DNA from: Sulfurivirga caldicuralii
GTDB lineage: Bacteria > Pseudomonadota > Gammaproteobacteria > Thiomicrospirales > Thiomicrospiraceae
DNA: 64,000 nt
Reading direction: 5' to 3'
Assembly: GCF_900141795.1 (NCBI RefSeq)
Contig: NZ_FSRE01000002.1
Span: forward strand, 434,001 to 498,000
The position numbers and the translations under genes were made by a program. Below are positions 24,407 through 50,322 of the stretch, in pieces; position 1 is the stretch's first letter, and every line of letters begins with the position of its first letter. The notes under the pieces are model-generated. The model was not told where the DNA came from, did no database searches, and saw only the letters and a list, made by a program, of their open reading frames with translations.

Positions 24407-25141
24407 TCAGCCACGTTTTCGCGCGCGATAGTGACATTCCGGCTGGGCGCACCCTTCTGCCAGAGCCTGCAAGGCCTCGGCATCGAGAATATCCACCTGC
24501 TTGCGTCGCCAGCTGAGCCAGCCATTGTTCTGAAAACGATTTAATACGCGGGAGAAGGTTTCCGGTGTCAGACCGAGATAAGTGGCCACTTCCCGGTGCA
24601 GAATGGGCAGTCGGAAAGAGGTTGAATCCAGTCCCCGTGCATGAAAGCGATTGGCAATGCTGAGCACAAAGGCGGCAACACGTTCTTCAGCGGTCTTGTT
24701 GAGCAACTGGTCAAAGTGCTCCCGCTCCAGGCGCAGATCCTGGGCCAACATGCTGAGGATCTGGCGATTGAGGGTGGGAATTTTCTGCGCCAGGGTTTCC
24801 AGATCATCGCGGTGGATACGACAGAAGGTGCAATTGTCCAGCGTAATGGCGTCGAAGGGATACACCGGGCTATCAAGCGCTTCCATGCCCAGGACATCAC
24901 CGGGCAGATAAAAGGCATGAATGATCTCATTGCCTGCCTGGTCGAAACGACTCAGCTTGACCACACCCGATTTGAGTGCATAGAGGAAGTCTGCAGCGTC
25001 TCCGGCGCTGAACAGCTGACTGCCACGGGGGATAGCCGGATGAGAGGAAACAATCTGATCCAGCTGTGCGATTTCGTTACTGGACAGACTCTTGGGGAAA
25101 CAGATCCGCTGCAGTCCACAGTGCGCACAGGAAATATGCAT
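24407..25141 (-). CDS. FNR/Anr-type oxygen-responsive transcription regulator
   Basis: This CRP-family protein of 244 residues has the cysteines for an oxygen-labile [4Fe-4S] cluster: Cys5, Cys8 and Cys14 (CAHCGLQRIC) and a fourth among CTFC (104/107). The cyclic-nucleotide-like roll follows, then a helix-turn-helix with recognition helix ETFSRVLNRF, whose E..SR pattern matches FNR and predicts binding to TTGAT-N4-ATCAA. Such a site lies just downstream of its own gene. It should switch gene expression between aerobic and oxygen-limited conditions. The upstream 700 bases hold no gene. Confidence 0.93.
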   Translation of the reverse strand: MHISCAHCGLQRICFPKSLSSNEIAQLDQIVSSHPAIPRGSQLFSAGDAADFLYALKSGVVKLSRFDQAGNEIIHAFYLPGDVLGMEALDSPVYPFDAITLDNCTFCRIHRDDLETLAQKIPTLNRQILSMLAQDLRLEREHFDQLLNKTAEERVAAFVLSIANRFHARGLDSTSFRLPILHREVATYLGLTPETFSRVLNRFQNNGWLSWRRKQVDILDAEALQALAEGCAQPECHYRARKRG

Positions 25142-25467: not shown

Positions 25468-25865
25468 GGCGCAGAATAACGCCATTATCTCTTTAATTTC
25501 AATCGCTTGCACAACTATTAACAAACAGCTTTAAAAAGTTAACGTTGGTGAGATTTGTGCTTTGTCAACCCGTCAAAGCAAAGTTATTCACCGGATTTTT
25601 TATAAAAGGGGCAAAAGTTATTTATGGAATCTTATCCCTGACCGAGCCCCCGTAACATGCACGAGGTGGATCAGGGTTGATCCCTGCGCCTGATTGACAC
25701 AACCTATCACCACTGCAAGCTCGAATCGCAACCATGGCAGCATCCTGCCGCATCAATAAAAACGCTGCTTCATCGCCAGCCAGAACGCCCCCAGCAAACA
25801 GCCGTTCAGACAGGTTCGACCATCACTTAAAATACAGTCCCTTTAACACTTCAGGATCACAGGCG

Positions 25866-27086
25866 ATGAGCAGCTTTCTTGGTGTAGGCAACCTGGTACT
25901 GGACACCATTCTGACGACCAGCCACTTTCCAGCTGAAAACGAGGAAATGCGGGCAGAGGCGCGCCAGCTGCAGCCCGGCGGCAATGCGGCCAACACCCTC
26001 TATGTTCTCAAGCAACTTGGACATGAGTGCGCCCTTGCCAGCGCTATTGCCGTGGACGACAGCGGACGCAAGCTGCTCAAGGCCGTCAGTGACCGCGGTA
26101 TTGATACATCGCTGTGTCAGAAACGCCTCAAGGGGGCTACGCCAACCAGCTACGTACTGGTCAACAAGGAAAACGGCAGCCGCACCATCGTGCACTACCG
26201 CGATCTGGCCGAACTGGACTTCGAGCACTTCGCCAGGCAAGAAATCGAGCGTTTTGACTGGCTCCACTTTGAAGGTCGCAATGTGGACAACCTCAAAGGC
26301 ATGCTCAATATCGCCCGCACATTCTGCCCGAATACGCCTATCAGCCTCGAGCTGGAAAAGCCGCGCGATGGTATCGAAGCGCTCTTTGGCGTGCCCAATC
26401 TTATTATTATCGCGCGACACTATGCTAACGATACGGGATTGGCGGATGCAGAAGCGGCTATCGAGCATGTGCGCACCTTTGCGCCTCAAGCCACACTCGT
26501 CTGCACCTGGGGCAGTGATGGCGCCTGGTTTGCCTCACCGGGGAATCCCATTCGGCACCAGCCAGCCATTCCTGTTCCCCGCGTTGTGGACACACTGGGG
26601 GCCGGCGACACCTTTAATGCCGGACTTTTGCATAAACTGGCAGAAGGCGCCCCCATTGATGAGGCCGTCCGCTTTGCCGCAGAGCTGGCGGCACGCAAGA
26701 TTCGCCAGCAGGGTTTTGATAATCTGCTCGCTCCTTTAGCGGATGACCAGCCACTGACGCATGTGGACAATGTCACCAACGCCCGCGCCACCATTGCGCG
26801 CGTCCCTGGCAAGGAGTTCAGCGTCATTCTCATCAAGGATGGTGAAGGGAAAATCCGCGCGTGGGTCAACAACTGCCCGCATCAGCATGTTCCGCTCAAC
26901 GAAGCCTACAAGGTGGACGTCAATCCCTTTACCCAAACCATGAAATGCTCAGTGCACGATGCCTGGTTCAAGGTGGATGATGGGGAATGTGTCGAAGGCC
27001 CCTGTTACGGCGATCACCTGACGCCCTTCCCTATCCGCATTGATGAGGACGGCAATATCTATGCCGATACGTCCGAAAGCGACTGA
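25866..27086 (+). CDS. PfkB-family sugar kinase fused to a Rieske [2Fe-2S] domain
   Basis: Residues 1-300 are a ribokinase/ketohexokinase-like kinase: GGNAANTLYVLKQLG near residue 40 and the catalytic anion-hole motif DTLGAGDTFNAG near 243. Residues 310-406 form a Rieske domain with CPH (Cys337, His339) and CSVH (Cys361, His364), the C-x-H and C-x2-H ligand sets, followed by the GPC turn. The two parts are in one frame with no break. A kinase would transfer phosphate from ATP to a sugar; the Rieske cluster would handle electrons or sense redox, and the reason to join them is unclear. The start at MSSFLGVGN is chosen because the kinase fold begins there; the frame is open 44 codons further up. 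Confidence 0.88.
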   Translation: MSSFLGVGNLVLDTILTTSHFPAENEEMRAEARQLQPGGNAANTLYVLKQLGHECALASAIAVDDSGRKLLKAVSDRGIDTSLCQKRLKGATPTSYVLVNKENGSRTIVHYRDLAELDFEHFARQEIERFDWLHFEGRNVDNLKGMLNIARTFCPNTPISLELEKPRDGIEALFGVPNLIIIARHYANDTGLADAEAAIEHVRTFAPQATLVCTWGSDGAWFASPGNPIRHQPAIPVPRVVDTLGAGDTFNAGLLHKLAEGAPIDEAVRFAAELAARKIRQQGFDNLLAPLADDQPLTHVDNVTNARATIARVPGKEFSVILIKDGEGKIRAWVNNCPHQHVPLNEAYKVDVNPFTQTMKCSVHDAWFKVDDGECVEGPCYGDHLTPFPIRIDEDGNIYADTSESD

Positions 27087-30832: not shown

Positions 30833-30906
30833 CTATCTTTACCTTACACACTTTCCAGTGCGTGGTAGACTGCTGAAGGTGCCTTGTGGAGGAGCATGGA
30901 TGCCGG

Positions 30907-32418
30907 ATGATGAATTTCCGTAAATGGCGCTGGCTATTCGCCTGCCTCCTTTCAGGGTGGCTTGCGGGTGGCCTGGCGCAGGAAGACGAAGCGTATTCAT
31001 TTAATGGGCGCCTGTTGCTGCCTTTTCAAGGGGACCTGCCCGAAATGCAGCAGCGCCGCCTGATTCGCGTACTCGTCAATCCATCACGCACCAACTTTTT
31101 TTTCGAAGGCGATCGCATTCGCGGCATCGAGCATGAACTGCTGAGCCGCTACGAACAATTTCTCAATCGCGGCCCGCGAAAACAGCGCTACCGCATTCAC
31201 CTTATCTATCTGCCCACCCCTTTCAGTGTCGTGCTGGATGGGGTGATAACCGGCAAGGGTGACATCGGTGCGGCCGGGCTGACCATCACCCCTGAACGCG
31301 CCAATCTGGTAGCCTTTACCAAGCCCTATCTCACAGGCATCAATGAGGTACTTGTCACTGCTGCTGATGTACCGCAGCCCAGGCGGCTGGAAGACCTATC
31401 TAACAAGGTGGTGGTTGTGGTGCGTCACAGCAGCTATGCCGCCCATCTGCAGCTCTTCAATCTGGCACTGGGACAGGCTGGCCTGCAGCCCATGGAGGTG
31501 GTTCAGGCCGACCCCACCCTGGAGGCAGAGGATATTCTTGAGCTGGTCAACGAGGGACTCGTGGACTACACCGTTGTGGACAGCCATATCGCTGCGCTGT
31601 GGGAAAAGGTCCTGCCCAATATCCGCGTGCACGAGAATTTCGTGTTTCACTATGGTGGCGAAATCGGCTGGGCAGTGCGCAAGACCAACCCCAAGTTGCT
31701 TCGCTCACTCAATGACTTCATTGAGCGCTATGCCAGGCCGGGCAAACTGCTCAGCAACATTCTCTACAAACGCTACTTTGAAAACACGCGCTGGCTGAAT
31801 CAGGACTTCACGCAAAGCGCCCGGAAAGGCTTCCGGTGCTACAAGCCGTGGCTGCATACTTTTGCAGATTTCTTCGATTTTCCCTGGCATCTGCTGGCTG
31901 CTGTCGCCTATACGGAATCACACCTGAACCCTCGCAAGAGGAGCAGTGCCGGGGCGGTGGGGTTGATGCAGATCAAGCCGGTCATTGCCCGTCAGTTTGG
32001 CATCCGCAATCTGTACGACCCCTATGACAACCTGTTTGCCGGCAGCGCCTATCTGGCCTGGCTACGGGATATCTATTTTGATGAACCCGGCTACACGCCC
32101 GAAGAACGTCTCAATTTTGTGCTAGCCGCCTATAATGCCGGCCCTACCCGCGTTCGCAAACTGCAAAAGGAAGCCGCTGCACGCGGACTCGATCCCTACA
32201 AGTGGTTTTACAACGTGGAAATCGTCGCACGTCAGCGTATTGGGCACGAAACCGTCAATTATGTGGCCCGCGTACGCAAGACCGAAACCGCGCTACGGTT
32301 GATGGAGGCCCTTGAAGAACACCAGCGCCGCGTCAAGCTGAACCTTCTCGCCCGTCAGGACGATACACCCGCACATCAAACCCCTGCGTCAGCAGATGCT
32401 GCCCGTGCAGCTGACTGA
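30907..32418 (+). CDS. MltF-like membrane-bound lytic transglycosylase
   Basis: This 503-residue exported protein has a signal peptide (WRWLFACLLSGWLAGGLAQ), a family 3 solute-binding domain (residues 55-290, LIRVLVNPSRTNFFFEGDRIRGIEHELL) and an SLT transglycosylase domain with catalytic Glu in AYTESHLNP, then GLMQI and AYNAG. It cleaves peptidoglycan between MurNAc and GlcNAc, forming 1,6-anhydro ends. A GGAGG lies about 14 bases before the chosen ATG; the adjacent second ATG or a GTG farther up are alternatives. Its 3' end overlaps the convergent thiI gene by 86 bases. Confidence 0.88.
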   Translation: MMNFRKWRWLFACLLSGWLAGGLAQEDEAYSFNGRLLLPFQGDLPEMQQRRLIRVLVNPSRTNFFFEGDRIRGIEHELLSRYEQFLNRGPRKQRYRIHLIYLPTPFSVVLDGVITGKGDIGAAGLTITPERANLVAFTKPYLTGINEVLVTAADVPQPRRLEDLSNKVVVVVRHSSYAAHLQLFNLALGQAGLQPMEVVQADPTLEAEDILELVNEGLVDYTVVDSHIAALWEKVLPNIRVHENFVFHYGGEIGWAVRKTNPKLLRSLNDFIERYARPGKLLSNILYKRYFENTRWLNQDFTQSARKGFRCYKPWLHTFADFFDFPWHLLAAVAYTESHLNPRKRSSAGAVGLMQIKPVIARQFGIRNLYDPYDNLFAGSAYLAWLRDIYFDEPGYTPEERLNFVLAAYNAGPTRVRKLQKEAAARGLDPYKWFYNVEIVARQRIGHETVNYVARVRKTETALRLMEALEEHQRRVKLNLLARQDDTPAHQTPASADAARAAD

Positions 32419-50082: not shown

Positions 50083-50098
50083 ACGCGCCCTCAAAAGC

Positions 50099-50252
50099 GC
50101 ATCAGGTGCCCTGTACGGGATAATCGGGAAGTTCGGTGCAAGTCCGACGCTGCCCCCGCAACGGTGATGGAGAAGACGCTGCACAACGCCACTGGCCAAC
50201 CGCCGGGAAGGCGCAGCGGAATGGCTCCTCAGCCCGGAGACCGGCCTGATGC
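50099..50252 (+). promoter_or_regulatory. Cobalamin (B12) riboswitch
   Basis: The leader carries the conserved parts in order: GGTGCAAGTCCGACGCTGCC, CCCGCAACGGTGA, GCCACTGGCC, GGGAAGGC and AGCCCGGAGACCGGCC, closed by the P1 helix GCATCAGG/CCTGATGC. It should bind adenosylcobalamin or a related cobalamin and repress the downstream receptor gene. Confidence 0.95.
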
Positions 50253-50322
50253 AAGCACATCAACCACATTGCGGCGGGCAATGGTGGGTACGGCACGGTC
50301 ATGACGTGCAGGCCTCCCCTTG

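Follow-up and report, generated by a model that had tools for sequence, protein, structure and literature searches.

Three kinds of described protein are closest to the gene considered here. The first is ketohexokinase, the animal fructokinase (KHK-A/C; PDB 2hqq, 3nbv, 6ul7), of which the solved chains matched in this work consist of a kinase domain alone, with no Rieske. The second is the Escherichia coli sulfofructose kinase YihV (PDB 7ag6), a PfkB ketose kinase that is part of sulfoglycolysis and also has no Rieske domain. The third comprises the Rieske-type ferredoxins (2i7f, 1fqt and T4moC, 1vm9) and NirD. We describe a gene in a 64,000-nucleotide stretch of the Sulfurivirga caldicuralii genome (the window, to which all positions refer) that joins a kinase resembling the first two to a domain resembling the third. 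The kinase half shares 34–36% identity with ketohexokinase, including substrate and catalytic positions, and 25–26% with YihV. The Rieske half has the fold and the CxH and Cx2H ligands of the ferredoxins and NirD (Z 10–14), but it is fused to a kinase, carries an additional invariant CxxGPC motif and is only 13–24% identical to them. An initial annotation of this DNA held that PfkB kinases normally act alone. This needs qualification, as NCBIfam holds PfkB kinases fused to a second domain in HldE, the IolC–aldolase protein (NF047869) and the KDPG aldolase–kinase (NF041633); the partner in those fusions is an enzyme, however, and none has a redox domain as found here. The protein scores far below the NCBIfam cut-offs of all three.

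Architecture and conservation of the fusion gene

The forward strand of 25866–27086 is one unbroken frame of 406 amino acids plus stop. Both Pfam domains score above their cut-offs within it, PfkB (PF00294) over residues 7–285 (25884–26720; E 8.8e-41, 140.6 bits against a cut-off of 25.8) and Rieske (PF00355) over residues 296–382 (26751–27011; E 3.4e-10, 40.2 bits against 20.3), and the single frame proposed in the initial annotation is therefore upheld. An alternative in-frame ATG upstream, at 25734, would give a product of 450 amino acids. Translation from 25866 is likelier, since the homology of relatives begins there and a sigma-70-like promoter match lies just ahead of it (25805–25833, forward strand). 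That match is weak (9 of 12 positions) and is not in itself evidence of function, as three such matches were found against 1.6 expected by chance. A scan with Rfam gave no match at the fusion gene itself; elsewhere in the window it placed a cobalamin riboswitch at 50087–50263 on the forward strand (110.9 bits).

Of 62 Thiomicrospiraceae genomes, 62 gave a single match across both domains, two of these matches being partial (G774, covering residues 1–368, and G786, residues 74–400), and the fusion was retained even in a family genome of 1.67 Mb. Frameshift, misassembly and absence from close relatives, three of the outcomes named beforehand as damaging to the reading, are thereby ruled out together with chance. 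Relatives were sought in genome contigs with an alignment as query, the window protein alone having given no match there, and the best 80 of 196 matches were retained. Sulfurivirga sp. and Sulfurivirga caldicuralii MAGs (65% identity) rank among the nearest named loci in this set of 80, and more distant fused loci came from Thiomicrospira, Hydrogenovibrio and Thiomicrorhabdus, then from Halothiobacillus and Guyparkeria. The named records of the last two genera thus answer the suggestion that databases be searched for the two-domain architecture. All these fusion-bearing genera are sulfur-oxidising autotrophs. No relatives were confirmed in viral contigs. A plasmid origin was rejected, as plasmid matches were distant (<60% identity) and the three with >80% coverage were chromosome-size Acinetobacter records (3.7–4.1 Mb). 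A search of the open-licence literature, which leaves most subscription papers outside its scope, returned no description of a kinase–Rieske pairing and so agrees with the earlier remark that none was known. The architecture is real and conserved, is built of known families, and is apparently undescribed.

The gene stands by itself, with a divergent Crp/FNR-family regulator gene upstream (24407–25141, reverse strand; Pfam HTH_Crp_2 and cNMP_binding) and convergent rlmB and rnr downstream, the last two named from their Pfam domains. The regulator had raised the idea of a link with oxygen status, and conserved neighbours had been proposed as a check. An FNR-like gene did recur beside the kinase in 13 of 18 fetched family loci, but in none of 42 outside the family, including all the fused or adjacent loci there, and no third gene accompanied the fused or adjacent forms across families, bar a SnoaL-like one at some adjacent pairs. 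No FNR box with zero or one mismatch lies between the regulator and the fusion gene. The FNR neighbour is local synteny, the regulator is not thought to be part of the system, and the oxygen link through FNR has little to recommend it. The rest of the window has five FNR-box-like matches (1.57 expected), which have no bearing on the fusion gene. A perfect FNR-box-like sequence, TTGATGCAGATCAA, at 31963–31976 is probably a chance match, as it falls inside an open frame (30886–32418).

Properties of the kinase and Rieske halves

Animal ketohexokinase was the closest solved-structure family by sequence (E 7.7e-54, the next family being at about 1e-17). An AlphaFold2 model of the fusion protein, built from a 64-row alignment (pLDDT 94.8, pTM 0.85), matched human KHK over the whole kinase half (Z 41, rmsd 1.4 Å over 288 residues); further matches were YihV (Z 35) and ribokinases (about Z 33). 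The protein passes the PF00294 cut-off, conserves the GG(N) and GAGD motifs, and among the PfkB families of known structure is most similar to KHK in both sequence and fold. Residues G38, G39, N40 and N43 were invariant in all 64 aligned fused proteins, and the GGN of residues 38–40 (25977–25985) is the substrate-site motif by alignment with human KHK. The GAGD motif (residues 245–248; 26598–26609) holds D248, the predicted catalytic base from its alignment with D258 of human KHK, which was present in every fused, adjacent and stand-alone kinase row. The substrate and catalytic positions D15, G41, N42, N45, R108 and D258 of human KHK are conserved in the window kinase. The residues of KHK that contact fructose are D15, D27, G41, N42, N45 and D258, all present here but D27, which corresponds to N25, a position that is D in 85% of fused rows; most of these contact residues are also general to the ribokinase fold. 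Moreover, R112, at least 95% conserved in each of the three bacterial groups (fused, adjacent and stand-alone), is T115 in human KHK, and the true substrate may therefore differ from that of KHK. The S. caldicuralii genome (99.99% complete) has just one other PfkB gene, a 483-amino-acid frame of HldE size.

The four Rieske ligands lie exactly where the initial annotation had placed them, C337-x-H339 (26874–26882) in the first predicted cluster-binding loop and C361-x2-H364 (26946–26957) in the second. They were invariant in 64 of 64 fused proteins, as were two further cysteines, C375 and C380, within a DGxCxxGPC stretch (CxxGPC at 26988–27005), although identities among these rows fall to 37%. 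The six-residue pattern matched 63 of 63 named fused loci, which are the same sequences as the 64-row set minus that of the window, and C375 and C380 were found in all 15 Rieske rows compared from fused, adjacent and Acinetobacter loci. Modelled alone, the domain (pLDDT 94.2) had its best matches in soluble Rieske ferredoxins, from Z 13.8 downwards. Rieske subunits of cytochrome bc1/b6f complexes have disulfide cysteines in both cluster loops and an N-terminal membrane helix, and the bc1 loops also carry a Ser/Tyr pair; the loops here read CPHQHV and CSVHDA, with neither the extra cysteines nor the Ser/Tyr, and the domain follows a soluble kinase. The loop sequences suggest a domain of the low-potential ferredoxin type. 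Its score with the NCBIfam model of HcaC, an oxygenase ferredoxin, is far below the cut-off (18.5 bits against 150), and no dioxygenase partner was found in its own genome, in which the only other Rieske gene is a 209-amino-acid frame of bc1 size. The genome thus offers no Rieske oxygenase as a partner, and the role of oxygenase ferredoxin was ruled out for this organism.

Kinase–Rieske pairing and RuBisCO in the Gammaproteobacteria

KHK-like kinases were found in 102 of 369 genomes of the class. A phylum-wide draw matched 2 of 398 genomes, the window's own included, so the apparent frequency depends on the draw; the 22 genomes listed in the phylum draw are all of one class and say little on the others. 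Pairing was counted in 92 of the 102 kinase genomes, the ten with later handles, outside the second draw, being left out. In 33 the Rieske domain was fused to the kinase or encoded immediately after it, in 1 it lay immediately before it, in 20 it was encoded elsewhere, and in 38 none was found. It was therefore fused or next door in 34 of 92, once in reverse gene order, and adjacent pairs were separated by short gaps or overlapped at an ATGA (as in Methylophaga). That the pairing occurs as a fusion, as a tight operon and once in the opposite order argues for a functional link; the 38 kinase genomes without such a Rieske indicate that any control it exerts is dispensable. On the kinase tree and its bootstrap trees the fused state needed three changes, so that the fusion may have been gained repeatedly, but a single origin was not rejected (p-AU 0.2). 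The tree was built after removal of seven long-branch rows, of short fused rows and of near-duplicates, which took the 126 rows to 118 and then to 80.

Other gene pairings were noticed around these families. In 14 of 28 stand-alone kinase loci (L060, L065, L067, L072, L077, L079, L080, L083, L084, L086, L088, L092, L094 and L099) a small, conserved CPxC...CxxC protein with hydrophobic stretches is encoded directly upstream on the same strand, the gap to the kinase being −29 to 34 nt; it was seen in 0 of 32 fused or adjacent loci. The 60 kinase loci were hand-picked (family members and better-scoring class matches), so this count is no random sample, and from gene order the CPxC...CxxC protein and the Rieske look like mutually exclusive partners of the kinase. 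At L181:5809-7150 in Acinetobacter baumannii, in a chromosome-size record classed as a plasmid, the gene of a different, 338-amino-acid PfkB kinase precedes a Rieske gene that also belongs to the CxxGPC family, and the two overlap or lie 1 nt apart according to which start is chosen; this could possibly be a second kind of kinase–Rieske pair. A SnoaL-like protein (PF13474) is encoded upstream of the kinase at a number of kinase–Rieske pairs (L075, L082, L085, L091 and others), and stand-alone members of this Rieske family have a similar protein encoded next to them (L184, L205 and others).

RuBisCO (PF00016, E <= 1e-30) was surveyed in a draw that matched the kinase draw in size and settings and was present in 176 of 369 class genomes. 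It accompanied the kinase in 94 of 102 genomes, as against 82 of 267 genomes without it (odds ratio 26.5). When each family was represented by a single genome (158 in all, taken by handle order), the counts were 41 of 44 and 35 of 114 (odds ratio 30.8), and for the Rieske family alone the odds ratio on that basis was 3.6. Among kinase genomes, RuBisCO was found in 32 of 36 with an adjacent or fused Rieske and in 62 of 66 without, the latter class including eight genomes outside the Rieske test; the link with CO2 fixation thus belongs to the kinase and not to the Rieske. The eight kinase genomes lacking RuBisCO are G025, G056, G071, G182, G231, G306, G380 and G384, of which G025 and G182 group on the kinase tree with Methylophaga, methylotrophs that use the RuMP cycle. 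No cbb gene stood out next to the kinase among the conserved neighbour families of the fetched loci. The association may in part reflect shared ancestry and ecology.

Possible roles of the fusion protein

The data directly support that the two domains are fused and the fusion is conserved, that all ligands are present, that the kinase resembles KHK in fold and active site, that kinase and Rieske genes pair in operons in other lineages, and that kinase and RuBisCO strongly co-occur; the substrate and the redox gating of the kinase are what we infer from them. We tentatively favour a ketohexokinase-type ketose kinase whose C-terminal ferredoxin-type Rieske domain is an accessory redox module modulating the kinase in CO2-fixing bacteria. 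The kinase would phosphorylate a ketose at C1 with ATP, either fructose or a pentulose or heptulose derived from Calvin- or RuMP-cycle sugars, and would thereby serve salvage or balancing in cells that carry a heavy flux of ketose phosphates. The Rieske domain would bind a cluster of the low-potential ferredoxin type and could raise or lower kinase activity with the electron supply or oxygen exposure of the cell. Redox control of sugar phosphorylation, one of the mechanisms raised at the outset, seems the best account of the pairing. Besides the kinase genomes that lack the Rieske, two observations count against gating. An allosteric interface might be expected to leave a mark on the kinase, and a comparison of fused, adjacent and stand-alone rows revealed none: at the thresholds used, no position was conserved in the fused and adjacent kinases, which have the Rieske, yet lost in the stand-alone ones. 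The Rieske family, present in 130 of 339 class genomes, also stands mostly in other gene contexts, and these were scattered in 60 fetched loci without a neighbouring KHK-like kinase.

One alternative, possible but somewhat doubtful, is that the Rieske domain is an electron carrier and no regulator, passing electrons to a third enzyme that acts on the same ketose or its phosphate. The nearest Rieske folds are indeed dioxygenase ferredoxins (Z 13.8 to 11), the PfkB fusions on record join enzymes, and the occurrence of the same Rieske family in many unrelated gene contexts is as expected of a general carrier. No conserved third gene was found with the fused or adjacent forms across families, however, bar the SnoaL-like neighbour at some adjacent pairs, nor does the S. 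caldicuralii genome offer a Rieske oxygenase. It is unlikely that the domain serves structure or stability, or stores thiols or iron, without any redox effect on the kinase, and that drift from an operon pair fixed the fusion. Active-site positions are alike in kinases with and without it, so that it does look like an optional accessory, and many kinase genomes lack it altogether; yet drift sits poorly with six ligand and cysteine positions held invariant in all 64 rows at such divergence, and with a fused state that may have arisen more than once, even if one origin is not rejected by the AU test. It is improbable that the kinase works in the turnover of sucrose or in ordinary catabolism of fructose via fructose-1-phosphate, with an incidental RuBisCO link, even though its closest characterised relative is a ketohexokinase. 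The sucrose-synthesis family PF00862 occurs in just 4 of 13 searched family genomes (all 13 having the fusion), and in those four another PfkB gene lies within a few kb of the PF00862 gene. In S. caldicuralii the only other PfkB gene is that of HldE size, so that a candidate for 1-phosphofructokinase is lacking; the genome does have a PF00365 phosphofructokinase, which also rejects a replacement phosphofructokinase.

Returning to the redox-module reading, a wider and more speculative form of it, which we consider rather doubtful as a whole, is that the KHK-like kinase accompanying RuBisCO in the Gammaproteobacteria acts in the repair, salvage or balancing of Calvin-cycle (or RuMP-cycle) ketoses, and that in several lineages of sulfur oxidisers it carries a [2Fe-2S] switch through which the electron supply gates sugar phosphorylation. 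If true, autotrophic sugar metabolism would here be under redox control by an iron–sulfur cluster rather than by thioredoxin. We know of no role assigned to the KHK-like kinase in RuBisCO-bearing bacteria, and without gating the kinase would still mark an autotroph function lacking assignment. Both halves of the protein are familiar; their pairing is new to the open-licence literature that was searched and is universal in one family of chemolithoautotrophs, and if the Rieske domain does gate the kinase, it would constitute an iron–sulfur switch on the carbohydrate metabolism of CO2-fixing bacteria.
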